Of a DNA stretch of 46,760 nucleotides, positions 5,201-43,146 are shown piece after piece; position 1 is the stretch's first letter, and each line of letters opens with the position of its first letter. The stretch lies in assembly GCA_017526785.1 (NCBI GenBank), contig JAFXQV010000014.1, positions 1 to 46,760 of the forward strand. Reading direction: 5' to 3'. Source of the stretch: Oscillibacter sp. (lineage in GTDB: Bacteria > Bacillota > Clostridia > Oscillospirales > Oscillospiraceae). Under the pieces are notes generated by a model. The model saw only the letters and a program-made list of their open reading frames with translations, did no database searches and was not told where the DNA came from. A program made the position numbers and the translations under genes.

Positions 5201-8200
5201 TTATCCCTTGTAGTTGCGCATTCTCCAAATGATGGCCGAAACCTGCCCACGATTCAGAGTGCCACTGGGGCGGAACGTGCTGACGCCCTCTTCATAGTAG
5301 CCGTTAATAATTCCGGCGGCGTTCAGCGCCTTGACGCTGGTATTGTCCGTATCGGTAAAGGGCTGTACGCTCGACAAATGGGACGTGTCCAGTTTCATGG
5401 CGGCGGCGGTGAGTTCCGCGACTTCCAGACGCGTTATCGGCTCCCACAGGTCGACTTCACGCGGAATCAGCCCGTCGTCTATGGCCTTTTCCATGTAGCC
5501 TTGGAACGGGGACATAGTGGTGCCTTTCTGTTCCGTGTACCCGGCGGCAAGCATGATGAGTTTGAGCGCCGCGCCCCACGTCACGGAAGCGCCGGGACGG
5601 TACGTGTTATCCTCATAGCCGCCGATTACCCCGGCGTCGGCCAGTTCGGTGACGTACTTGTAGCACCAGACACTGGATGTCATGTCGTCGAAGCGTTTAA
5701 GCGTGGAAATGACGCCGAGCGTGAAGTGTCCGATTCCGGTGGGGTTGGCGTCGCCGTCCACCATTAAATAGGGAATGTCAACAGAGCCGATGAAGTCGGG
5801 GTTGGGGACAAAGCGCAGGTCACTGACTTTCGGCGTGATGTCCGTCCAGTGGTAGATTTGGGCGGTGTCGGCGGGGGACTGTCCGCTTCCCACGACCACG
5901 GCACCAGTGGAGGCCTCCGGGAGTTCCAGCAGGCGGAAGCCGTTCATTATGTCGACGCCCGTTCCGGCCTTGACGTTCGTCAGCAGGTTGGACGCCGGGA
6001 ACGTGACGGTTCTGCCCTTGGGAATCGCGCCGTACACGTCCGCCACTAACTCCTTGGTCACGCTGATGAGTACATTGCCCGTACACTGGACAATGTTTTC
6101 GTGTGCGTCGAGCCCCGTGGCGGAAAACGGGACGGTCTCACAGAAATTCTTCTCGACGACGGGGACATAGGTCAGTTCCGCGAGGGAGTAGCGGTCGGTG
6201 TAGGCGGGGCTGAAGTAGAAACGCATGTGCGGCAGGTTGCCAAACAGCAGTTCCGTACGGGGGCTGTCGCCGTAGGCGCTGGAAGCGTAATAGTCATAGA
6301 CCAGTTTCCCGAACTCCGGCAGGGCGCTGAAGCTGACATGGCTGATTGTGCCGCCGGGGAACGTTTTCCGGAAGAAGCGCTCGAAGTCGTCGGAGACGAA
6401 CCGAAATGGCGTATTCCAAGTGGCGGCGTACAGCAGATTCCCGGCGGCGACGGGCGTACCCGTAAAGGGTTCCGTGATATTGACCGCTTCGTGGGGCATT
6501 TCCACGGGTTCGCCCGGTTTCGGTTCATCGGGTACGGTGTCGCCGGAATTGGCCGTTTCGGGTTCCTTGCCCGGTTCCGTGGGTACGGTGTCGCCGGAAT
6601 TGGCCGTTTCGGGTTCCTTGCCCGGTTCCGTGGATACGGTGTCGCCGGAGTTGGCTGTTTCGGGTTCCTTGCCCGGTTCCGTGGATACGGTGTCGCCGGA
6701 TGTATCCTGTTCTGCGGGTGTAGTGTCGCCGGAAGTGTCCTTTTCTGCGGGTGTGGTATCGCCGTCGCCGGGCTTCTCCGGTTCGGGGGCGGCCGCCTGT
6801 ATCTCAATCGACATCGTTATGACGGCGCTTGCCTGCTTGGAATCGTATAAGGTACACTCGAAATGTACCGTCCGCGCGGCCGCCGTCACGGGCGCGGAGA
6901 ACAACAGACTTTTCAGCGCGTAGTCGCCGTACTTGTCGGAATCGGCGTAGAAGCGGATTTTTTCAATGTTTTCAGACGTGAAAATGGTTTCTTCCAGTCC
7001 GCCGATATCCGCGCTGATGAAGCCCGTTTCGGCGGAGAGCGTGTCTTTCGTGCTGAACGTTACATAGCGGAATGTCCCCTTGAGCTTTTCCTTGGCGGGG
7101 GTGGAGAAGTCCGGCAGACTGAATTCCACGCGCTCCCCGGCGCGTACCAGATACACAATATCCGGCTCTTTGGTCTCGACGGGTGCGGCAGTCATGTCGG
7201 GGGCGTCCGACGTGCCGGGGTCGGGCGTCTGCGTATCCGTGGCGGGTGTGGGCGTCGGCGTATCCGCGGCGGCGCTGGCGGACGGCAGAGTGGGGCCGTA
7301 CACGGGCGCGGGATTCGTGTCCTTGTCGCTGACCCTTGCCCAGTTGATTTGGATGACCAGCGTACCGTCATAGTGTTCCGTGCGCCCGTACGCGCTGAAC
7401 GGGAAGCGGACGAGATTCCCCCCGGCCTCGTTGGCGGCAAGGAACGTCATACCGCTGAGCGGGTAGGAGCCGTAACGGCTCGACGAGTGGAAAAACTTGG
7501 CGTCTTGGAGCATGCCCGTCGTAAACTGCTTTTGTCCCTGTCCCTCGAAGTCGTAGTAGAGGTAGCCGTTTTCGGGGCTGAAAGAGGCGTCGGGCTGGAA
7601 AGTAAGGTAACGAAACTCCTCATCACGGCTGGCGTGGTCTCTGAAGAAGTCGCGGAAGTCGTTCCTGTCGAAGCGGAGAGTATCCCCGGCGGTGACGTGC
7701 CAAGTCAGGTCGACAATGGAACTTTCCGGCGCGGGTGTGGCCGTTTCCTGTACGGGTGCCGCGCCCTGTACGGTAATGCTGACCTGTCCGGCGCAGTTCT
7801 CGGAGTCGCCATAGGCGCGGAAAGCCAGTGTCACGGCGTTTCCGGCCGCCTGACGGTTCGCCACAAAGGACAGCGTTTCCAGCGGATACGCGCCGTACAT
7901 GCTCGAACGGTCATAGAAACGGGCGTCCTGCAACATATTCCGGGTGAAGGCGGTTTCGGTCTCGGTGCCGTAGTCACAGTACAGAATGCCGTTGGAGGCT
8001 TTCAGGGAGCCGTCCGGCTCGAAGGTGACGTAGCGGAAAGTGTCCGTCTGACAGCTTGCGTAGAAGAAAGCGCGGAAGTCCTCGGCGTTGACTTTCACGG
8101 CCTCGCCGGGGGCGACGGTGTAGGTGATATCGGAGTTACTGGCGTTGAGCGCGTAAGCCTCGACATCGGCGGCGTACGCTCGCGGGAGGAACGTTATCAG

Positions 8201-8254
8201 CAGGCAGAGCGTACAGAGTGCCGCCGTGATACGCTGTAATCGGGTTTTGTTCAT
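5201..8254 (-). CDS. Large SLH-anchored surface protein with four divergent repeat modules
   Basis: A 1017-aa secreted protein. The signal peptide ends near RAYAAD (about residue 28). Three related modules of roughly 110-125 residues follow, sharing ...DF, FRYVTF, LY.D, LQDA.FY, S..YG.YPL and a final beta-rich ITV/IQI strand. A TP-rich spacer separates modules 2 and 3. A Glu/Pro/Thr-rich linker with a 17-residue tandem repeat precedes a fourth, more divergent module (HVSFSALPEFGKL, YVPV). A C-terminal region of about 180 residues holds SLH motifs (YVTELADAGVIGGYEDNTYRP; GIINGYYEEGVSTFRPSG). The ATG start follows GGAGGGTGCTTC; an upstream in-frame extension lacks a signal peptide and was rejected. 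The modules resemble Ig-like beta units common in clostridial SLH proteins; their ligand is unknown. Probably structural or adhesive. Confidence 0.8.
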   Translation of the reverse strand: MNKTRLQRITAALCTLCLLITFLPRAYAADVEAYALNASNSDITYTVAPGEAVKVNAEDFRAFFYASCQTDTFRYVTFEPDGSLKASNGILYCDYGTETETAFTRNMLQDARFYDRSSMYGAYPLETLSFVANRQAAGNAVTLAFRAYGDSENCAGQVSITVQGAAPVQETATPAPESSIVDLTWHVTAGDTLRFDRNDFRDFFRDHASRDEEFRYLTFQPDASFSPENGYLYYDFEGQGQKQFTTGMLQDAKFFHSSSRYGSYPLSGMTFLAANEAGGNLVRFPFSAYGRTEHYDGTLVIQINWARVSDKDTNPAPVYGPTLPSASAAADTPTPTPATDTQTPDPGTSDAPDMTAAPVETKEPDIVYLVRAGERVEFSLPDFSTPAKEKLKGTFRYVTFSTKDTLSAETGFISADIGGLEETIFTSENIEKIRFYADSDKYGDYALKSLLFSAPVTAAARTVHFECTLYDSKQASAVITMSIEIQAAAPEPEKPGDGDTTPAEKDTSGDTTPAEQDTSGDTVSTEPGKEPETANSGDTVSTEPGKEPETANSGDTVPTEPGKEPETANSGDTVPDEPKPGEPVEMPHEAVNITEPFTGTPVAAGNLLYAATWNTPFRFVSDDFERFFRKTFPGGTISHVSFSALPEFGKLVYDYYASSAYGDSPRTELLFGNLPHMRFYFSPAYTDRYSLAELTYVPVVEKNFCETVPFSATGLDAHENIVQCTGNVLISVTKELVADVYGAIPKGRTVTFPASNLLTNVKAGTGVDIMNGFRLLELPEASTGAVVVGSGQSPADTAQIYHWTDITPKVSDLRFVPNPDFIGSVDIPYLMVDGDANPTGIGHFTLGVISTLKRFDDMTSSVWCYKYVTELADAGVIGGYEDNTYRPGASVTWGAALKLIMLAAGYTEQKGTTMSPFQGYMEKAIDDGLIPREVDLWEPITRLEVAELTAAAMKLDTSHLSSVQPFTDTDNTSVKALNAAGIINGYYEEGVSTFRPSGTLNRGQVSAIIWRMRNYKG
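6530..6700 (-). repeat. 51-bp tandem repeat, three full copies plus a partial, within the SLH protein linker
   Basis: Copies begin at 6530, 6581 and 6632, with a truncated one from 6683. They are near-identical at DNA level, and each encodes 17 residues of the type GDTV-TEPGKEPETANS. Shorter related units (GDTTPAE-DTS) follow. High DNA identity suggests recent expansion by slippage or recombination. Confidence 0.95.
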
Positions 8255-8338
8255 GAAGCACCCTCCAATCAATGAAGCGAAGTTTCGGGAAGCCGTATCC
8301 AAAATCAGGAATTTTCGGATACCGTGCCACGAAAAACA

Positions 8339-8393
8339 CACTGTTATATTACACTTTCTCCGCGAATAATGCAAGAACAAAGTGTGAACAGTG
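8339..8393 (-). promoter_or_regulatory. Promoter of the large SLH gene inside nested inverted repeats
   Basis: On the minus strand TTGCAT (8369-8374), a 17-nt spacer and TAATAT (8346-8351) form a sigma-A-like promoter. CACTGTT (8339-8345) pairs with AACAGTG (8387-8393), and inside it ACACTTT (8351-8357) pairs with AAAGTGT (8379-8385). The arms bracket the promoter symmetrically, as expected for an operator. A further dyad, GTATCC to GGATAC at 8295-8322, lies in the leader. Confidence 0.5.
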
Positions 8394-8543
8394 CGTAAAA
8401 GAAATCCCCTCTGCCGCCTTGCGGCGGCATGTGCCGGGCGGGGCGACAAACACAGTCCCGGCCGCTCGGGCATAAAATGTGACGGAAAGCGCCGGGCGTT
8501 TTTGTCGAGAATGTAAAAGTTCCGTCGGCGGGACAGATAGCGG

Positions 8544-33759: not shown

Positions 33760-34524
33760 ATGAAAAAGCGGTCGTATCGCATAGAGAAACTGACGCTGAA
33801 GGTCGGCGACGACGACATTTACGGGGTAATGTGTCTGCCCAACGTAGAGAAGGAAACCTATCCCACGGTGATTCTCTCCCACGGCTTTGGCTCCAACGCC
33901 GAATCCTGCAAGCCCCACGCGAAAATCTTCGCCGCCAACGGCTACGCCGCTTACGCGTTTGACTTCCGGGGTGGCGGCACCGATTCCAGAAGTTCCGGTG
34001 CCACTACGGAAATGTCCGTCCTGACGGAAGCGGAGGATTTGACCGCCGTACTGGAACAGGTGCGGACGCTGGATTATGTGGACGAAAGCCGGGTGTTCCT
34101 ATGGGGAGCAAGTCAAGGCGGCTTCGTTTCCTCTTACGTCGCGGCGAACCGTCCCGACGACGTGAAAGCCCTGATTCTGTATTATCCCGCCTTTGTCCTT
34201 CAGGACGACGCCCGCGCCCGGTATCCGAACCTCGACGATATTCCTGAAATTGAAAATCTGTGGGGAACCGAATTGGGCGCGATTTACAGTATGGACGCCA
34301 TGTCCTTTGACATTTACGGGGTTATTGGAAACTACAAGGGCGATGTCCTGATTGTCCACGGCGACAAAGACGATGTCGTCCCGCTGTCCTATTCGGAACG
34401 CGCCGCGACGGTCTACAAATCCGCCAATCTGATTGTATTTGAGGGCGGCGGACACGGCTTCAGCGACCGCATAGCCGAGGCCGCCGCGTATTCTCTGGAA
34501 TTTCTTCAGGCGCATACCACGTAA
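33760..34524 (+). CDS. Alpha/beta hydrolase, cinnamoyl-esterase-like
   Basis: A 254-aa cytoplasmic serine hydrolase. The oxyanion-hole motif is LSHGFGSN. The nucleophile is Ser118 in WGASQGG. The acid is expected in VHGDKDDVVP and the His in EGGGHGF. The size and YAFDFRGGGTDSRSSG region resemble gut bacterial cinnamoyl/feruloyl esterases. The substrate is inferred only. Start ATG at 33760 with GGAGGA upstream; an in-frame ATG 25 codons earlier lacks a site. It stands between a parA remnant and the LysR-type promoter repeat. Confidence 0.88.
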   Translation: MKKRSYRIEKLTLKVGDDDIYGVMCLPNVEKETYPTVILSHGFGSNAESCKPHAKIFAANGYAAYAFDFRGGGTDSRSSGATTEMSVLTEAEDLTAVLEQVRTLDYVDESRVFLWGASQGGFVSSYVAANRPDDVKALILYYPAFVLQDDARARYPNLDDIPEIENLWGTELGAIYSMDAMSFDIYGVIGNYKGDVLIVHGDKDDVVPLSYSERAATVYKSANLIVFEGGGHGFSDRIAEAAAYSLEFLQAHTT

Positions 34525-34655: not shown

Positions 34656-34664
34656 CCCCCCCCC
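34656..34664. repeat. Homopolymer of nine C
   Basis: A C9 run in the spacer between the hydrolase and the LysR-type promoter repeat. Such tracts are slippage-prone. It lies about 45 bp upstream of the promoter repeat, with no gene across it. Confidence 0.9.
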
Positions 34665-34708: not shown

Positions 34709-34786
34709 TATGCTTTTTCAGCATGGGAAACCCATACGATTTAAGCATTTTACATTTCTTTCCGCCTGTGCTATTCTGAATCCGTC
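34709..34786 (+). promoter_or_regulatory. LysR-type promoter, copy A (upstream of the DUF362-flavodoxin operon)
   Basis: About 78 bp nearly identical (roughly 85% by eye) to 40084-40161. It contains the palindrome ATGCTTTTTCAGCAT (34710-34724; T-N11-A type), then TTTACA (34749-34754), a 17-nt spacer and TATTCT (34772-34777). The palindrome is centred about 67 bp upstream of the predicted transcription start, the usual position of a LysR recognition site. Confidence 0.85.
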
Positions 34787-34840
34787 GGCGGAATTACAGC
34801 TCTTTTCGCCGATAAAACAAAATATAAGGAGGGAATCATC

Positions 34841-35956
34841 ATAGGAAAGCTCCATTGGAAAAAACTGGCGTTCTGTATGGCTCTGTTGCTGTCGCTGGTC
34901 GGCTGCGGAGGACGCGACAACGCCGCGAACATCGGCGGCGAGGATGCGGTCGTTTCGGAAGTGGCGGACGCCGGAACGCCCGAAACAACGGATGTGGAAA
35001 GCGCGAAGGACGCCGAAACAACGGAACCGGAAAGCGTAGAGAACGCCGAAACGCTTTCGGAGGAAACCGCCGCCCCCGCCGCGTCCACGGTGTATTTTAC
35101 AGCGGACATCTCCCCGGAAGGACTGGTCAAGGCGTATGAGGCGCTGAACTGGACGCCGACCGGAAAAACGGCGGTGAAGCTGTCCACGGGCGAACCGCCC
35201 AACAGCAACTATCTCCGCCCCGAACTGATTGCCGACTTGGTGAACGCGGTAAGCGGAACAATCGTGGAGTGCAACACGGCCTACGGCGGTTCCCGCGCCT
35301 CTACCGCTATGCACAAGCAGGTAGCGGAAGACCACGGCTTTACCGCTATCGCCAATTTTGACCTGATGGACGAGGACGGACAAAAGGAAATTCCCGTGAC
35401 GGGCGGCGTCCGGTTGAATCGGGCGATTGTGGGAAGCCATATCGACAATTACGACAGCTTTTTGATTCTGTCCCATTTCAAAGGCCACGCTATGGCGGGC
35501 TTTGGCGGCGCGATTAAAAACGTGGCTATCGGGATGTCGTCGGCAAGCGGGAAAGTTCTGGTGCATACGGCGGGAGAGCGCACAACGGGCAGTATCTGGT
35601 ACGACAACCAGGACGCGTGGCTGGAGGCGTTGCCGGAGATGGTTTCGGCGGTGCGGGATTACATCGGCGCGGAAAATATCGTCTATGTCAACGTGATGAA
35701 CCGCCTTTCCGTGGACTGCGACTGTGACGGCAACCCCGCCGAACCCGATATGCACGACATTGGAATTTTAGCGTCCCGTGACCCGGTAGCCCTTGACCAA
35801 GCCTGCGTCGATTTGGTGTACGCCGCCCCGGACAGCGCGTCCTTGCAAGCGCGGATGGAGCGTCAGCACGGCGTTCACGCGCTGGAACACGGCGAGGGAA
35901 TCGGCCTCGGAAGCCGGACTTATGAATTAGTTACTCTGGGAGGAAACGCGCAATGA
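34841..35956 (+). CDS. DUF362-domain lipoprotein with an apparent ATA start
   Basis: A predicted 371-aa surface lipoprotein. Reading from ATA at 34841 gives (M)GKLHWKKLAFCMALLLSLVGC, a proper lipoprotein signal with Cys22; AAGGAGGG lies 7 nt upstream. The first in-frame ATG (34877) would leave only MALLLSLVGC with no basic end and no RBS. A Glu/Thr-rich tether follows, then a DUF362 domain with VKLSTGEPPNSNYLRPEL, NTAYGGSR, FLILSHFKGHAMAGFGGAIK, IGMSS, and GILASRDPVALDQACVDLV near the end. DUF362 is often found with ferredoxin domains, but no Cys cluster of that type is attached here. The start codon is the main doubt. It overlaps the flavodoxin gene by 4 bp. Confidence 0.8.
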   Translation: MGKLHWKKLAFCMALLLSLVGCGGRDNAANIGGEDAVVSEVADAGTPETTDVESAKDAETTEPESVENAETLSEETAAPAASTVYFTADISPEGLVKAYEALNWTPTGKTAVKLSTGEPPNSNYLRPELIADLVNAVSGTIVECNTAYGGSRASTAMHKQVAEDHGFTAIANFDLMDEDGQKEIPVTGGVRLNRAIVGSHIDNYDSFLILSHFKGHAMAGFGGAIKNVAIGMSSASGKVLVHTAGERTTGSIWYDNQDAWLEALPEMVSAVRDYIGAENIVYVNVMNRLSVDCDCDGNPAEPDMHDIGILASRDPVALDQACVDLVYAAPDSASLQARMERQHGVHALEHGEGIGLGSRTYELVTLGGNAQ

Positions 35957-36708
35957 AAAAGCAATTGGCGCTGATTAGTGTCGTAATTCTTCTCCTTTTC
36001 GCCGCCGGGTGCGGGGCGAACGGGAACGCTACGCCGGACAATCACGCGGAAAACGCAACCGCGCCGAAATCGGATTCCGTCGAACAGTCCCCGGACAGCG
36101 TGGAGGCGTCCGGCGATACGGAAAGTGGAGTTTCACAGGAAATCCCTGACAATGCGGCGGAAAATCCCACTGTGGACGCGGTAGAAAATCCCCTTGTGGA
36201 CGCGCCGGAGGAAACGCCGGAAGCCGACGCGCCGAAAATTCTGGTGGCGTATTTCTCCGCGACGGGAACGACAAAGGGCGTGGCGGAAAATCTGGCGGCG
36301 GCGTTGAACGCTGACCTTTACGAAATCACGCCGGAGGAACCCTATACGGCGGAGGATTTGAACTACAACGACCGCACGACCCGCGCCACGGTCGAGCAGA
36401 ATACGCCGGACGTTCGCCCCGCCATTGCCGGAGGCGTGGACAATATGGAACAGTACGACACGGTTTTCATCGGTTATCCCATCTGGTGGGGAGACGCGCC
36501 GCGCATTGTCAGCACGTTCGCGGAAAGCTATGATTTTACAGGGAAAACGGCGGTCGCGTTCTGTACGTCAGGCGGCAGCGGAATCGCAACGAGCGAGCGC
36601 ACGTTACGCGAACAGGCCGACGGCGCGCAATGGCTTTCCGGCAAGCGTTTCAGCGGCGGCGCGTCCGTGGAGGAACTGCGGGAATGGGTCGCCGGACTTG
36701 GCGTATAA
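35953..36708 (+). CDS. Flavodoxin-like lipoprotein
   Basis: A 251-aa exported flavodoxin. The lipoprotein signal ends in LLFAAGC (Cys20). A long acidic Pro/Glu/Ala tether runs to about residue 93. The flavodoxin domain then begins ILVAYFSATGTTKGVAE, with the FMN-phosphate loop at 102-109, and continues IGYPIWWGDAPRIV and FCTSGGSG, both contacts of the isoalloxazine ring. The domain resembles the flavodoxin_4 group. The start lies in the DUF362 stop (ATGA) with GGGAGG upstream, so the two are translationally coupled. An outward-facing one-electron carrier is the likely role. Confidence 0.92.
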   Translation: MKKQLALISVVILLLFAAGCGANGNATPDNHAENATAPKSDSVEQSPDSVEASGDTESGVSQEIPDNAAENPTVDAVENPLVDAPEETPEADAPKILVAYFSATGTTKGVAENLAAALNADLYEITPEEPYTAEDLNYNDRTTRATVEQNTPDVRPAIAGGVDNMEQYDTVFIGYPIWWGDAPRIVSTFAESYDFTGKTAVAFCTSGGSGIATSERTLREQADGAQWLSGKRFSGGASVEELREWVAGLGV

Positions 36709-36748
36709 GGCTTCAGCTTTCAGAGAACGGAAGGAGGATTGAGGGCGG

Positions 36749-37084
36749 ATGAAAACGAAAAGAGCCGTTGACATTCTCATGACGTTTCTCCTTCTGTTTC
36801 TGATGTCCTATCAGGTGACGGAACAGGCGGCGCATGAGTGGCTGGGCATGGGCATGACCGTGCTTGTCATTCTGCATCAGATTCTGAACCGGAAATGGTA
36901 CGCCGCGCTTTTCCGGGGAAAGTACGGCGCAATCCGCGCCGCAAGACGTAACGGACTGGCTGTCCCAAAACGGGATTGCCTGACGGGTTATGATAGCGCT
37001 CTGGCCTCTTATGACCCGATAGCGCGTCCCTGCAAGGAATGTCAGCACGGCTCGGCAGCCGGGCTTACAAACGGCTCAATCTGA
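36749..37084 (+). CDS. Truncated DUF4405 membrane protein
   Basis: A 111-aa product. The first 60 or so residues look like DUF4405 proteins: a basic start, LMTFLLLFLMSYQVTEQAAHEW, VLVILHQILNRKWYAALFRGKY. The His residues in the helices are candidate haem ligands in this family. After about GAIRAARR the sequence loses similarity and ends in a Gly/Ser-rich tail without the further helices I expect. A frameshift or deletion near 36945 is likely. It follows the flavodoxin gene by 40 bp and has a reasonable RBS (AAGGAGG, long spacing). It may be non-functional. Confidence 0.6.
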   Translation: MKTKRAVDILMTFLLLFLMSYQVTEQAAHEWLGMGMTVLVILHQILNRKWYAALFRGKYGAIRAARRNGLAVPKRDCLTGYDSALASYDPIARPCKECQHGSAAGLTNGSI

Positions 37085-37122
37085 GCGGATGAACGCGGTT
37101 TTCTGAAAAGGAGCGGAAACAG

Positions 37123-37659
37123 ATGAAAATTCTTGCGCTGACAGGCAGTCCAAACAAAAACGGCTCTTCCAATCTGCTGGCGTCCGAATTTACGCGGGGC
37201 GCGGAGGAAGCGGGGCATAGCGTACGCGTCGTGAACGCCGCGCATATGCGGATTTCGCCTTGTACTGGCTGCATTCACTGTGGATATAACGGCTCCTGCG
37301 TACAGAAAGACGATATGGAAACAATCCGCCCTCTGATTCTCGACGCGGATATGCTGGCGTTTGTCACGCCGCTGTATTATTACGGAATGTCGGCGCAGTT
37401 GAAAACGCTGATTGACCGATTCTGCGCGTTTAACGGACAGATTCAGAGAAAACGCGTGAAATCCGCGCTTCTGGCGGTCGCGTGGAACTCCGACGGCTGG
37501 ACGTTTGACGCGCTGGAGGCTCATTACAAAACGCTGGTGCGGTATCTGAACTTCCGGGATAAGGGCATGGTTCTGGGGCGGGGTTGCGGAACGCCGTCCA
37601 TGACACGCGCAAGCCGTTTTCCCGGACTGGCGTATCAGCTTGGGCGCGGCCTGAAATAG
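37123..37659 (+). CDS. NADPH-dependent FMN reductase / iron-sulfur flavoprotein-like
   Basis: A 178-aa cytoplasmic flavoprotein. It begins MKILALTGSPNKNGSSNLLA, the FMN-phosphate loop of this family. A Cys cluster, SPCTGCIHCGYNGSCVQKDDM, matches iron-sulfur flavoproteins. TPLYYYGMSAQLKTLIDRF is the usual second flavin motif. RBS is AAAGGAG. It is last in the DUF362-flavodoxin-DUF4405 run before a strong terminator, and could feed electrons to the envelope components. Confidence 0.9.
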   Translation: MKILALTGSPNKNGSSNLLASEFTRGAEEAGHSVRVVNAAHMRISPCTGCIHCGYNGSCVQKDDMETIRPLILDADMLAFVTPLYYYGMSAQLKTLIDRFCAFNGQIQRKRVKSALLAVAWNSDGWTFDALEAHYKTLVRYLNFRDKGMVLGRGCGTPSMTRASRFPGLAYQLGRGLK

Positions 37660-37673
37660 CCACATCAGAAACA

Positions 37674-37713
37674 GAAACTCCCGTCAGTCAGGCAAATGAC
37701 TGACGGGAGTTTC
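37674..37713. terminator. Perfect bidirectional terminator
   Basis: A 17-bp perfect stem, GAAACTCCCGTCAGTCA with its complement, and a 6-nt loop lie between the flavoprotein and the convergent MATE gene. Both sides have short T-runs inside the stem ends. Confidence 0.9.
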
Positions 37714-37727
37714 CCGCTACGCTGTCT

Positions 37728-39101
37728 TTAGATGACATCAAATTCTTTCCACTTCCCGGAGTGTGCGCGGAGAATAAACAAAACCGCACGGGCGCTCCAA
37801 TCGATAACCATTGCAATGGCAATCCCGATAACGCCCATGCCAAACGACACGCCCAAAATCCATGAGAGAAGCAGTCTGCCCGCAATCGTGGAGGCGAGGG
37901 ACACCGCCATCGTATAGCGCACATCTCCCGCCGCCCGCAGTCCGGCGCTCAACGCCCCGGAGAACGGGAACGCCGCCGCGTTGAACGCGTTGTGAATCAG
38001 AACCAGCCGGAATACCAGTTGTTTTGTCTCCGCTTCCAGCGCGTAGACGCGGAGAAAGAACGGGGTTATCAGCAGAATCAGCAGGTTCCATACGGCGGAG
38101 ACGGCCAGCGTCACGAGCGAGAGTTTGCGCAAATAATACGCCGCCGCCCCGGTATCGCCCCGCCCCATGCACTGTCCTATGACCGTGATAAACGCGGGTC
38201 CCATGGCCACGCCCGCCAGCGCCGCCAAAGACCAGATACTCTGCGCCACGCCGTTTGCGGCAATCTGACTGGTTCCGAACAGCGCCGCAATGCCGGACAG
38301 CGCCACTTTCACCAGTTGGAAAACGCCGTTTTCCACCCCGTTCGGAATCGCAATCCACAATATTTTTTTCAACATCACGCGGTCAGCATGGAACAGCCAA
38401 CTTGCCTCATAGGATATCGCCCATGACTTTTTGAAACATAGGACAGTGACCGCCACGGCGGAAAACATACGGGCAATCAGGGAAGGCCATGCCACGCCCG
38501 CAACGCCCGCGTGAAAGACAAAGACCCCAAGCAGATTCCCGCCCACGTTGATGAGATTGGAGAACAGGGAGAGAACCATAGTAATGTCTGTCCGCCCGAT
38601 ACTGCGAAAGACGGCGGCTCCCGCGTTATAGACGGCGAGCGCGGGGAAGGAATACGCGGAGATACGGAGATAAATTACACAGGCTTCCATTACATCCGCG
38701 TCCACGCTTCCGAACAGCGCCCGGAGAATCATTCTGTTTCCCGCCAGCGTCAGGAGCGTGATTCCGGCGGAAAACGCCGTGGAAAAGAGCAGAAGCTGAC
38801 TTGCGGCTTTCCCCGCGTTGTCCCGCTCTCCCCTGCCGGTATACTGACTGATGACGACCGCACCCCCGGAGGCCAGCGCCGTAAAGAGAAAAATAAAAAT
38901 AGTGTTGAACTGGTTCACCAGAGAGACGCCCGATACCGCCGCCTCCCCCGCGTAACTGACAATCAGGGTATCGGCAAGCCCCACCAGCATGACAAGAAGC
39001 TGTTCCAAAAACAGAGGAATGATTATCGCGCTCAAATCCCGGTTGGAAAACTGTCCGTCCACATTTTTCACGCTTTCTCGTTTCTTAAAGTCCGCGCTCA
39101 C
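37728..39101 (-). CDS. MATE-family multidrug/metabolite exporter
   Basis: A 457-aa integral membrane protein with about 12 helices. Typical MATE segments are IIPLFLEQLLVMLVGLADTL, VSGVSLVNQFNTIF, GGAVVISQYTGR, IAIPNGVENGVFQLVK and GPAFITVIGQCMGRGD. MATE proteins export cations or metabolites by Na+ or H+ antiport; the substrate is unknown. Start is GTG at 39101, overlapping the LysR stop by 4 bp, with AAAGGGGG upstream. It is translationally coupled to the LysR regulator. Confidence 0.93.
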   Translation of the reverse strand: MSADFKKRESVKNVDGQFSNRDLSAIIIPLFLEQLLVMLVGLADTLIVSYAGEAAVSGVSLVNQFNTIFIFLFTALASGGAVVISQYTGRGERDNAGKAASQLLLFSTAFSAGITLLTLAGNRMILRALFGSVDADVMEACVIYLRISAYSFPALAVYNAGAAVFRSIGRTDITMVLSLFSNLINVGGNLLGVFVFHAGVAGVAWPSLIARMFSAVAVTVLCFKKSWAISYEASWLFHADRVMLKKILWIAIPNGVENGVFQLVKVALSGIAALFGTSQIAANGVAQSIWSLAALAGVAMGPAFITVIGQCMGRGDTGAAAYYLRKLSLVTLAVSAVWNLLILLITPFFLRVYALEAETKQLVFRLVLIHNAFNAAAFPFSGALSAGLRAAGDVRYTMAVSLASTIAGRLLLSWILGVSFGMGVIGIAIAMVIDWSARAVLFILRAHSGKWKEFDVI

Positions 39102-39997
39102 AGGCGTTCCCCCTTTTCCGCGTCCAAATATCCGTGCAAAAACTCAATGAATTTTCCGGCGGCCATGCCGTGCGGCGCGTCCCGTTTCCACGCTATGACG
39201 CTGGAGGCTGATAGTTCCGGCGACAGCGGGCGGTAGGTCACTTCCTCATGGGACCAGAAGGGAACGGAACCCTCAATTACCAGAGAACAGCCCAAACCAT
39301 TCCGTACCATAATCGCGGCGTTGGTGCTTAGATTGCTGGTAAAAAGAATATTCAAATGGCGGTATCGCCTTCCAAACCAGTTGGCAAGCTCACTCTGTAC
39401 AGCGGAACGGCGGGGCAGTATCAGGGGGATGTGTTTCAAGTCGGCGGCGGTCACGCTGTCTTTCGCCGCTAAAGAGTGGTCGGTTCGCATTAGAGCCACC
39501 CAGCGTTCTTTGGGAGTGAGACGGATAAAGTCAAAGGACGCCATGTCCGCCGGTTCCAACAGCAGGCCAATGTCCAGAATCCCGTTTTCAATCTGTTCCC
39601 GGATATGGTCCGCGTTGGCGGTGTAAAGGTCAAACTGTACTCTGGGGTGTCGCTCCGAAAAGGCTTGGCAGGCTTTTGCCAGCGTCTGTACGGCGGCGGT
39701 CTCCCCGCTTCCGATGGAAATCACGCCTTCGATTTGTTCCTCCTGTAGGGCAAGTTCCCGCTCTGTCTTTTCCACCAGCGCGAGAATTTCCTCCGCCCTG
39801 CGGCGGAGAAGAATCCCCTCGTTGGTCAGTTCAATTTTTCTTGCGCCCCGCTGAAAGAGCCGGACGCCGGACTCATCCTCCAACTGCGCCAACTGCCGAC
39901 TGAGCGTGGGCTGTGTGATATGCAGAACTTTGGCCGCCTTGGAAATGCTTCCCTGCCTGACGACCGTGAGAAAATATTCCAGCACGCGAATTTCCAT
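39098..39997 (-). CDS. LysR-family transcription regulator
   Basis: A 299-aa protein. The winged HTH (residues 1-60) reads EIRVLEYFLTVVRQGSISKA, AKVLHITQPTLSRQLAQLED. The effector-binding domain follows (ISIGSGETAAVQTL, then GLLLEPADMASF). The ATG at 39997 follows GGGAGGGAAAG; a longer frame upstream overlaps the promoter and was rejected. It is divergent from the GH3 gene, whose promoter carries a T-N11-A palindrome, and is co-transcribed with the MATE exporter. The same promoter sequence occurs at 34709, so that operon is probably also a target. The inducer is unknown. Confidence 0.93.
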   Translation of the reverse strand: MEIRVLEYFLTVVRQGSISKAAKVLHITQPTLSRQLAQLEDESGVRLFQRGARKIELTNEGILLRRRAEEILALVEKTERELALQEEQIEGVISIGSGETAAVQTLAKACQAFSERHPRVQFDLYTANADHIREQIENGILDIGLLLEPADMASFDFIRLTPKERWVALMRTDHSLAAKDSVTAADLKHIPLILPRRSAVQSELANWFGRRYRHLNILFTSNLSTNAAIMVRNGLGCSLVIEGSVPFWSHEEVTYRPLSPELSASSVIAWKRDAPHGMAAGKFIEFLHGYLDAEKGERL

Positions 39998-40034
39998 GTT
40001 TCGCTTTCCCTCCCGTCGCTGAGATTCTCCGGAA

Positions 40035-40063
40035 ACAATACCAGATTTTGCGCGGCGCGGCAA
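40035..40063 (-). promoter_or_regulatory. Promoter of the LysR-MATE operon
   Basis: On the minus strand TTGCCG, a 17-nt spacer and TATTGT. It lies about 20 bp from the LysR-type palindrome at 40085-40099, allowing autoregulation. Confidence 0.6.
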
Positions 40064-40083
40064 GAGGAAAAGCGTAAAAAGGC

Positions 40084-40161
40084 TATGCTTTTTAAGCATA
40101 AGCAACCTATACAATTTAAGCATTTTACATTTCTTTCCGCCTGTGTTATCATAATTCCGTC
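40084..40161 (+). promoter_or_regulatory. LysR-type promoter, copy B (upstream of the GH3 gene)
   Basis: Palindrome ATGCTTTTTAAGCAT (40085-40099, perfect arms, T-N11-A), then TTTACA (40124-40129), a 17-nt spacer and TATCAT (40147-40152). The palindrome centre is about -67. It is a near duplicate of 34709-34786; the stretch from TTTAAGCATT to CGCCTGTG is fully conserved. Downstream, TACAGCTCTTTTC is also shared. Confidence 0.88.
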
Positions 40162-40224
40162 AGTGAATATGACGCGAAATACAGCTCTTTTCACGGGCTA
40201 ATTTCATCATAAGGAGGAGATTGG

Positions 40225-43146
40225 ATGAGCGGCGTAACGGTTGCATGGGAAGATGTCTTTAGCGTAGTCAGTCAGATTCGCGGCTGGCTGACTGGCGTCG
40301 CGGTCGTGCTGATTGCCATGATTGCGGCGCTGGTTCTGGCGGGGAGAGCCGGAAAGGAACGGGCGGGCTTTGTCCGCGCTCAGGCGGTTATCGCGGCGGT
40401 TCTGGCGGTGTGCCTGCTGGTCAACGGCATTCTGCTGGGGCCTATGCGGAGCCTTGTCTCTACCGCTATGGCGGAAACGGGCACGCTTTCCGCGCAGACG
40501 GTTCAGAACTCCAAGGACATCTGCGAAGCGGTGGCCAGTGAGGGCATTGTCATGACGAAAAACACGGGACTGCTCCCGCTGAACGGCGTGACAAATCTGA
40601 ACGTATTCGGCTGGGCTTCCACGAACCCGGTCTACGGCGGCACCGGGTCCGGAACGGTGGACGCCTCCACGGCGGTCACGCTTCTGGGCGGTCTGGAAAA
40701 CGCCGGGTTTACCCTGAACAGCGAACTGTCGGAACTGTATGTGAACTATCGCGCCGACCGCCCCGCCATTACCATCAACGACGGGCAGGAATGGACTTTG
40801 CCGGAACCCACGACGGACGCCTACGAGAACGGCATTCTGGACAACGCGAAGGCGTTTTCCGACACCGCGCTGATTGTCATTGCGCGCTGTGGCGGCGAGG
40901 GCGCGGATTTGCCCCACGATATGGGCGCGGTTATGGACGGTTCCTATCAGAAAGGCACAAAATACACACGCGCCAGTTATACGAACAACGGCGATTATGA
41001 CGACTACGCGCCCGGCTCCACCTATCTGGAATTAAGCCAGACGGAACGGAATCTGGTGGACATGGTCTGCGCCAATTTCGACAACGTGGTCGTGGTCTAC
41101 AACGGCTCCAACCCGCTGGAAATGGGCTGGACAGAGGAATACGAGCAGATTGGCGGCGTCCTGCTGTGCGCCAGTCCCGGCGCGACGGGCTTCAACGCCC
41201 TCGGCAAAATCCTCAACGGGGAAGTGAACCCCTCCGGCAAGACGGTTGACACTTGGCTGAAGGACGTGACGCTTGCCCCCACATACAACAACATCGGCCA
41301 CTTTGCCTATACCAACGTGCAGAATATCACCGACGCCGCGAAAGCCGCATGGGAACGGGCGGACGGCGTTGTTTCCTTCGTCAACTATGTGGAAGGCATC
41401 TACATCGGCTACCGCTACTATGAGACGGCTTACGCGGAAGCGCAGTCCAACGGGTACGACTTCGACTATAACGCCACGGTGATGTATCCCTTCGGCTACG
41501 GCCTGAGCTATACCACATTCACGCAGGAACTGGGACAGCCTGTTATCACAGACACTTCCGTATCTGTGGAAGTAACGGTAACAAATACCGGCTCCGAACC
41601 CGGCAAGGACGTGGTGGAACTGTACGTCACGCCGCCCTATACAAACCGCAGCATTGAAAAAGCGGCGGTCAATCTGGCGGCCTTTGACAAGACCAGTCTG
41701 CTGGCTCCCGGCACGTCCGAAACGCTGACGCTTTCCTTTGACAAAGAGGATATCGCCTCTTTTGACACCTACGGCACAGGCGGCTATCTGCTGGAAGCGG
41801 GAACCTATGAAGTAAGCCTCCGCACGGACGCCCATGCCCCGCTGGATTCCTTTACGTTCGACGTGGACAGCGACGTTTCTTACGGGGAGAGCAATCTTCA
41901 CAACGGCGACCTTGTGGCGGCGGTTCCCCGTCTGGGCTTCGCGGAGGGGAATCTGACCTACCTCTCCCGCGCCGACGGCTTCGCCAACTACGCGCAAGCC
42001 ACCGCCGCGCCCTCTGATTATGAAGTCCACGAGGAAGTGACCGGAAACGGAACCTATGACCCCACCCTCTACAACAACTCTGACGATGTTATGCCCCTGA
42101 CCGGACAGAAGAACGGACTGGAAGCCCATGACCTGCGGGGCGCGGATTACGACGACCCCCGCTGGGAACAGCTCTTAGACCAAGCCACAGTCGAGGACAT
42201 GGTAAATCTGATTGCCTACGGCGGTTTCGCCACGGTGAAAGCGGATTCCGTCGGAAAGGTCGCCACCATCGACTCGGACGGTCCCGCCGGCGTCAATTAC
42301 TCCCTGACCGGCGCGTTCGGCATGGGCTACTGCGGAGAAATCCTGCTGGCGCAGACATGGAACGTGGAAATGGCGAAAGAACTGGGCGAGGGCATTTGTC
42401 AGGAACTGGAGGACTTCGGCTTCAACGGCTGGTACGCTCCCTCCATGAATCTGCACCGCTCCATGTTCGGCGGGCGCAACTTCGAGTATTACTCGGAAGA
42501 CAGCCTTCTCAGCGCGGAAATGGCGGTTCAGGAGTGCGCCGCCGCCTATCCCTACGGCATTTACCCCTATATCAAGCATTTCGCGTTCAACGAGCAGGAG
42601 ACGAACCGGAACGGAATGCTCTGCACATGGCTGACCGAACAGGCCGCCCGCGAACTGTTCCTAAAACCCTTTGAGGAGTGCGTCAAGGCCAACAACGGCG
42701 AGGCTATGGCGGTCATGTCCTCCTATGTCTACGTTGGAACTACTTGGGACGGCGGTTGCTCCGCCCTGCTCAACGACATTCTACGGGGCGAATGGGGCTA
42801 CCGCGGCATGGTTCTGACGGACTACTTCGGGAATTACGGCTACATGGACGCGGATAAAGCTATTCGCGGCGGAAGTGATATTATGCTTGGCACCGCCGGA
42901 AACGACGCGATTCTGACCGACCAGACCAGCGCCACCTCCGTGCTGGCCATGCGTCAGGCTACGAAAAACATTCTGTACACGGTGGTCAATTCCAACGCCT
43001 ATTCCGACGAGGCTTACGCCGCCGCCACCGCCACGCCCGGCTGGCTCCGGACTACCTATACGCTTGACGCAGTTGTCATTGTCCTTTTGATTGCGGCGGA
43101 GGTTCTGGTTCTGCGCGGAGCGAAAAAGAAAAAGCAGGAGGCGTAA
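40225..43146 (+). CDS. Membrane-anchored GH3 glycosidase with swapped domain order
   Basis: A 973-aa beta-glucosidase-type enzyme. Two N-terminal helices (about 20-42 and 50-72) and one C-terminal helix (about 948-966, followed by RGAKKKKQEA) anchor it. The GH3 C-domain comes first (EGIVMTKNTGLLPLNG, GWASTNPVYGG, NPSGKTVDTW, YPFGYGLSYTTF), then a fibronectin-III-like domain (VTVTNTGSEPGKDVVELYV), then the TIM-barrel N-domain (about 670-935) with KHFAFNEQE (K784) and the nucleophile candidate D866 in GMVLTDYFGNYG. This reversed order is known in some ruminococcal and Butyrivibrio GH3 enzymes. RBS is AAGGAGGAG. It probably trims oligosaccharides or glycosides at the membrane, under LysR control. 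Confidence 0.9.
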   Translation: MSGVTVAWEDVFSVVSQIRGWLTGVAVVLIAMIAALVLAGRAGKERAGFVRAQAVIAAVLAVCLLVNGILLGPMRSLVSTAMAETGTLSAQTVQNSKDICEAVASEGIVMTKNTGLLPLNGVTNLNVFGWASTNPVYGGTGSGTVDASTAVTLLGGLENAGFTLNSELSELYVNYRADRPAITINDGQEWTLPEPTTDAYENGILDNAKAFSDTALIVIARCGGEGADLPHDMGAVMDGSYQKGTKYTRASYTNNGDYDDYAPGSTYLELSQTERNLVDMVCANFDNVVVVYNGSNPLEMGWTEEYEQIGGVLLCASPGATGFNALGKILNGEVNPSGKTVDTWLKDVTLAPTYNNIGHFAYTNVQNITDAAKAAWERADGVVSFVNYVEGIYIGYRYYETAYAEAQSNGYDFDYNATVMYPFGYGLSYTTFTQELGQPVITDTSVSVEVTVTNTGSEPGKDVVELYVTPPYTNRSIEKAAVNLAAFDKTSLLAPGTSETLTLSFDKEDIASFDTYGTGGYLLEAGTYEVSLRTDAHAPLDSFTFDVDSDVSYGESNLHNGDLVAAVPRLGFAEGNLTYLSRADGFANYAQATAAPSDYEVHEEVTGNGTYDPTLYNNSDDVMPLTGQKNGLEAHDLRGADYDDPRWEQLLDQATVEDMVNLIAYGGFATVKADSVGKVATIDSDGPAGVNYSLTGAFGMGYCGEILLAQTWNVEMAKELGEGICQELEDFGFNGWYAPSMNLHRSMFGGRNFEYYSEDSLLSAEMAVQECAAAYPYGIYPYIKHFAFNEQETNRNGMLCTWLTEQAARELFLKPFEECVKANNGEAMAVMSSYVYVGTTWDGGCSALLNDILRGEWGYRGMVLTDYFGNYGYMDADKAIRGGSDIMLGTAGNDAILTDQTSATSVLAMRQATKNILYTVVNSNAYSDEAYAAATATPGWLRTTYTLDAVVIVLLIAAEVLVLRGAKKKKQEA

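Follow-up and report, generated by a model that had tools for sequence, protein, structure and literature searches.

Why should the first gene of a redox operon and a glycosidase gene 5.4 kb away carry nearly the same promoter? The question is raised by a 46,760-nucleotide contig of an Oscillibacter sp. genome (Oscillospiraceae; GCA_017526785.1, JAFXQV010000014.1; the whole stretch is called the window below), in which positions 34709-34786 (copy A) and 40084-40161 (copy B) are 86% identical over 78 nt without a gap. Copy A stands in front of an operon that begins with DUF362 and flavodoxin genes (operon A); copy B lies between a gene of glycoside hydrolase family 3 (GH3) and a divergent gene for a LysR-type regulator. 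A first-pass annotation of this DNA had taken the near-identity, which we recover in full, as the mark of one LysR regulon. Our analysis points the same way: A and B are very probably two operators of a single LysR regulator, encoded divergently from GH3.

Each copy consists of two 15-bp boxes and a core promoter. The first box, of the form ATGC-N7-GCAT, reads ATGCTTTTT(A/C)AGCAT in the two copies; the second is degenerate, ATAC(A/G)ATTTAAGCAT, starts 24 bp downstream of the first and ends where the -35 element TTTACA begins:

34710..34724, plus strand: upstream LysR box of copy A (recognition-site-like), ATGCTTTTTCAGCAT, 11 of 12 consensus positions
34734..34748, plus strand: second box of copy A (activation-site-like), ATACGATTTAAGCAT, abutting the -35
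34749..34777, plus strand: core promoter of copy A, TTTACA-17-TATTCT, from a consensus scan
40085..40099, plus strand: upstream LysR box of copy B, ATGCTTTTTAAGCAT, 12 of 12 consensus positions
40109..40123, plus strand: second box of copy B, ATACAATTTAAGCAT, abutting the -35
40124..40152, plus strand: core promoter of copy B, TTTACA-17-TATCAT, from a consensus scan

Both the T-N11-A palindrome and the TTTACA/17/TATNNT core of the first-pass annotation are present in A and B, the second box being an addition to it, and the proposed position of the palindrome fits as well, the centre of the first box falling at about -67 if transcription starts some 7 nt behind the -10. The scan picks both cores, but it returns 10 sites in 9.9 kb where 4.3 are expected and is by itself weak support for them. 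Across sites, the second box has AT...AT ends in 50 of the 52 with 31-nt spacing and in 10 of the 15 with 32-nt spacing. Judged from its letters, the layout is the recognition-site plus activation-site arrangement of LysR regulators, with a predicted T-N11-A box near -65 of the target and a putative activation site adjoining the -35; this two-site scheme is described in general terms in PMC11739112, which does not deal with the window LysR.

The same two-box site accompanies relatives of the window LysR. With the protein as query, 50 named loci were retrieved, 49 of which hold a two-box site with offset 31 or 32 somewhere and 47 of which hold it within 400 bp of the LysR match (the others are L078, L085 and L083, the last ending 50 bp behind its LysR match). 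A Flavodoxin_4 homologue is found anywhere in the locus in 43 of the 50, and 39 of the 47 with a LysR-near site have a same-strand flavodoxin match whose start lies at most 500 bp downstream. When offsets from 20 to 49 were scanned in 90 of our 93 loci, the three with window DNA being left out, 76 box combinations were obtained, 60 at 31, 13 at 32, two at 23 and one at 37; in five block-wise shuffled versions of the full set of 93, the average was 5.0 per replicate.

Because little outside the boxes is conserved, BLASTN with the whole promoter against 200 genomes of the family (own included) yields mere pieces of at most 39 bp, in 9 other genomes at E<=0.01, and a profile was needed. For this model, R1, we used 67 sites and no structure: A, B, 15 others from the genus and 50 from the named loci. 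R1 has three matches in its own genome: B (1.6e-9), A (1e-7) and C15:81399-81442 (2e-6). Among 86 genomes of the genus, own included, R1 sites occur at E<=0.01 in 38 and a LysR relative at E<=1e-50 in 35, that is, 34 besides the window's own; 34 genomes have both, 1 the LysR only, 4 the site only and 47 neither (p=2.3e-18). Within 400 bp of a listed LysR lie 41 of the 73 genus sites, and 51 lie within 6 kb; conversely, a site stands no more than 400 bp from 36 of the 50 listed LysR genes. The association extends to the family, for which 400 genomes (9 of the genus) were used, the site and LysR draws being taken as the same set on agreeing handles: a site (E<=0.001) is present in 110 and a LysR (E<=1e-50) in 133. 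In the 391 genomes outside the genus, 93 have both, 35 the LysR only, 13 the site only and 250 neither (p=1.5e-45); both p-values are too small, because the genomes share descent. A LysR lies within about 1.5 kb on either side of the site in 20 of the best 28 family loci outside the genus. Five family loci (L253, L257, L263, L266 and L271) have a LysR gene with a site at both ends, upstream and downstream, where one regulator may serve both neighbours.

Which LysR would act on A and B? The best candidate to bind both copies is the window protein, which carries the two domains of a LysR-type regulator (HTH_1 and LysR_substrate, E 7e-23 and 1.1e-38). The genome also encodes a second LysR on another contig (C15; L190:1480-4300), 39% identical to the first, whose own divergent region holds the same kind of box: the third R1 match, placed before an open reading frame (ORF) read as a lipoprotein-like alpha/beta hydrolase. 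A gene resembling flavin mononucleotide (FMN) reductases is also found in that region, which may be another small regulon built along the same lines. Control of A and B by this paralogue, alone or together with the first, is unlikely, given its place on another contig and the spacing of the boxes, which is 32 in A and B and 31 at the paralogue's own site. On the LysR tree, a quick tree with 34 of 74 inner branches open, sites with offset 32 cluster (5 changes against a shuffled mean of 12.0, 0 of 500 shuffles as low), accounting for 13 of 49 labelled rows in the half of the window LysR and 0 of 16 in that of the second. Out of sample, LysRs of 55-59% identity had 32 in 3 of 4 sites and those at 49% or less had 31. 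The argument has its weakness in that A and B are not two independent observations, A being regarded as copied from B, and that the half of the window LysR also includes 36 sites of 31 nt; the spacing evidence points moderately to the window LysR.

What such a regulator would control can be read from the genes that follow the site elsewhere. A search with the R1 alignment (nhmmer) gave 164 sites in 217 loci, many redundant, and 112 once near-identical sites were removed; the downstream ORF was picked by a simple rule, 108 ORFs of at least 80 amino acids were scanned, and among the 25 of 44 families listed, Flavodoxin_4 leads with 50, followed by aldo/keto reductase (8), cyclophilin-like (8), GH3_C (6), S-layer (6), FMN reductase (5), iron-containing alcohol dehydrogenase (4), MerR (4) and ApbE (2). 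In one locus (L250), the ORFs that follow a single site on one strand include a pair of flavodoxin homologues, an FMN reductase with 71% identity to that of the window, a homologue (55%) of a 111-residue ORF of operon A and two ORFs read as aldo/keto reductases; much of operon A, DUF362 excepted, thus also occurs under such a site elsewhere. From the target list we infer that the regulon answers to a redox-active or electrophilic compound by way of reductases, to which a glycosidase is added here. The single LysR regulon that had been proposed is supported by the recurrence of GH3 and flavodoxin genes among the targets, together with the company of LysR relatives.

In the window, Pfam reads the locus from left to right as alpha/beta hydrolase, DUF362, Flavodoxin_4, an ORF without family, FMN reductase, MATE and LysR (both on the minus strand) and GH3:

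33760-34524: esterase, with no site in front
34841..35956, plus strand: DUF362 lipoprotein-like gene (PF04015, E 4.6e-43; lipoprotein by reading), start at ATA 34841 or ATG 34877
35953..36708, plus strand: Flavodoxin_4 lipoprotein-like gene (PF12682, E 2.7e-56; lipoprotein by reading)
36749..37084, plus strand: ORF of 111 amino acids, no Pfam match
37123..37659, plus strand: NADPH-dependent FMN reductase-like gene (PF03358, E 4.6e-22), last of operon A
37673..37714, minus strand (flagged on that strand only): terminator-like stem-loop of 18 pairs, directly behind MATE
37728..39101, minus strand: MATE transporter (PF01554), overlapping the end of LysR
39098..39997, minus strand: LysR-type regulator (PF00126, PF03466), divergent from GH3
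40225..43146, plus strand: GH3 glycosidase (PF01915, PF14310, PF00933), GH3_C before GH3_N

The first-pass annotation had drawn the esterase, the redox lipoproteins, the glycosidase and the MATE exporter into one regulated set, with a glycosylated aromatic or similar compound as its speculative substrate. The set is supported for the redox operon and GH3, which have the site; the esterase lacks one and MATE has none of its own above chance (its best candidate, at 39107, matches at 16 of 25 positions, a score shared by 38 places in the window apart from A and B), so that their membership is positional only. MATE is probably co-transcribed with LysR, and the stem-loop behind it may also end the converging operon A. 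The 111-residue ORF, which aligns with part of a 229-residue protein in L250 (55% locally), may be a truncated form. The DUF362 frame has no ATG at its ribosome-binding site, where an ATA stands at a fitting distance; the first in-frame ATG would remove the charged part of the signal peptide, and either a rare start codon or a base error is conceivable. Far from these genes, 51-bp tandem repeats at 6521-6745, within an ORF of 1090 residues (5201-8473, minus strand), encode a 17-residue protein repeat.

The glycosidase has both the N and the C domain of its family, in the order C then N, and hydrophobic segments near both ends (by reading); seven NCBIfam models match it, all of them far below their cut-offs (221.9 of 1300 bits at best). 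A site stands 140-168 bp in front of 8 of 58 GH3 genes, namely the window's, five more of the genus (G218, G219, G222, G242 and G244) and two of other genera (G134 and G356). Since these fall in two subclades, the link to a glycosidase is not peculiar to the window locus. The tree began with 27 rows and was enlarged to 58, of which L107, L116 and L287 hold less than 200 bp upstream and are not scorable; five distant genes (31-32% identity, L133-L137), the fragments L144 and L145 and duplicate entries of a gene were left out, and at most two candidates were scored per genome, nine lower-scoring of 54 listed places lying outside the count. The window gene groups with those of G475, G091 and G430, which have no site in front (in G430, one lies directly behind the GH3 gene), and the other seven site-bearing genes sit in a neighbouring clade of 19 that includes genes without it. 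The label takes four changes on the tree, three of them forced by starred branches, and is clustered (1 of 500 shuffles as low). A divergent LysR gene precedes GH3 in four cases, namely the window, G244, G134 and G186; the LysRs of G244, G134 and G186 are 44, 39 and 38% identical to the window LysR, and G186 (L281) has no site above threshold. GH3 genes may have been recruited under such a site more than once, but an early single origin with losses would fit as well, because the first tree parts six site-bearing from eight other genus genes by a single change (other genera uncounted).

How did the pair come to be so alike? The similarity continues past a 10-nt gap (34791-34832 and 40176-40217, 42 nt, 71%) up to the Shine-Dalgarno sequence. 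The 17-nt spacers between -35 and -10 agree at 16 positions, the leaders have TACAGCTCTTTT in common, and these shared positions are mostly not conserved among relatives; ATTTC, the first bases of the shared stretch beyond the boxes, recurs in some sites of the genus. Because near identity extends beyond the boxes, we read the pair as a promoter of about 130 bp that was copied between the two places, in either direction. The first-pass annotation had argued that so long a shared promoter implies a regulon: the promoters are indeed of LysR type, but so long a repeat is more readily explained as the trace of copying than as operator needed for binding. When promoter pairs are compared across loci, A and B are the most alike (69 of 83 positions; the ranking leaves out two pairs at 1.00 in which one site was read twice, several that rest on under 30 columns, and four loci without a match), closely followed by pairs in G231 (60 of 75) and G271 (60 of 76), so that other genomes have alike pairs too. 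A run of nine C at 34656-34664, some 45 bp ahead of copy A's first box, could be a slippage tract or an assembly artefact.

Copying could also have taken place without a common regulon, the boxes being merely carried along and at least one copy lying outside the control of this LysR. The agreement of spacer and leader speaks for such a history, as does the lack of a site at other DUF362 loci and in front of the nearest GH3 relatives. Yet neither copy has lost its boxes, spacing or core, although the two differ at other positions; the top two R1 matches of the genome are A and B (both of which belong to the model), and flavodoxin and GH3 genes are recurrent targets elsewhere. We consider this explanation quite improbable. 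A reading of the 78-bp repeat as mobile or repetitive DNA in which a promoter lies by chance has its occurrence in two places for it but is hardly credible, since copy B matches in its own genome (BLASTN; 2.34 Mb, 38 contigs, 94.6% complete) only itself and copy A (E 1.6e-20), besides two short matches (E 2.06 and 3.85), and other genomes of the family show just the short pieces mentioned above.

Several observations nevertheless weigh against a single regulon under the window LysR: (i), the second LysR, with its box of the same kind, could cross-bind; (ii), for 22 of the 73 genus sites no LysR is listed at 6 kb or less, and outside the genus the site is missing from 35 of 128 LysR-bearing genomes and present in 13 genomes for which no LysR is listed; (iii), none of 23 other DUF362 loci has a site (about 1.5 kb searched on each side), nor have the closest GH3 relatives (62-71% identical, L095-L097) one in front, and neither gene-site pairing is therefore widely conserved; (iv), the motif was first spotted by eye beside LysR genes and the pattern written from there, which makes the counts descriptive; (v), R1 includes A, B and 15 genus sites, so that the genus counts and the A and B matches are partly circular; the test on family genomes of other genera largely escapes this circularity but ignores shared descent. 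DUF362 was also tried as a marker of the regulon and ruled out, only the window copy of 24 loci having a site.

Retaining control of A and B by the window LysR as by far the best-fitting reading, we propose the following mechanism. The regulator, probably a tetramer, the usual form in the LysR family, would sit on the ATGC-N7-GCAT box at about -67; bound to a small ligand, it would engage the second box at about -43, touching the -35, and recruit RNA polymerase. One signal would then turn on both the redox operon (DUF362, flavodoxin, small protein and FMN reductase), whose products are probably surface-anchored, and the GH3 glycosidase, probably membrane-anchored. Copy B, lying within the upstream region of lysR, could control lysR-MATE too.

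As a regulator, the protein is of an ordinary kind. LysR family members in which a recognition site is paired with an activation site, such as CbnR and YhaJ, share with the window LysR the HTH_1 and substrate domains, the T-N11-A box, a second site by the -35 and a divergent lysR. The window protein is nonetheless far from characterised members: its best match in the PDB, where BenM and CatM also appear, has E 4.8e-23, and no NCBIfam model reaches its cut-off among the matches listed (25 of 55). Its type is further set apart from characterised LysR systems by its frequent targets: flavodoxins, reductases and GH3. The nearest parallels are Flavodoxin_4 / PRK07116 loci of Lachnospiraceae and other Firmicutes, with LysR relatives about 45-67% identical, the same site and a flavodoxin target; in those loci, the site usually extends over the 3' end of lysR and reads into the flavodoxin gene, whereas the window has it in the divergent region before GH3, with a copy 5.4 kb away. 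For the glycosidase, the best stretch of GH3_N falls late in the chains of the beta-glucosidases 5wug and 5k6l, suggesting the same domain order, but the window protein differs by its hydrophobic segments near both ends and by its LysR-type site. No paper on this operator or regulon was found among the matches listed in the open-licence literature, which is weak evidence of novelty given that most subscription journals lie outside it.

The analysis provides a base-precise predicted operator for a LysR group present in 133 of 400 genomes of the family and in named Lachnospiraceae (Blautia, Anaerobutyricum), and it links flavodoxin, DUF362, aldo/keto reductase, cyclophilin-like and GH3 genes that otherwise lack an assignment to a common type of signal. 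As a tentative idea, which we hold to be possible rather than probable, a widespread and undescribed LysR regulon of anaerobic Firmicutes would sense an aromatic or quinone-like compound and would have taken in cell-surface GH3 glycosidases, perhaps repeatedly, so that sugar removal would be induced together with the flavin-dependent reduction of the compound thereby freed, here by way of a copied promoter. If true, the shared induction of glycosidase and reductases would offer a concrete handle for finding that compound.

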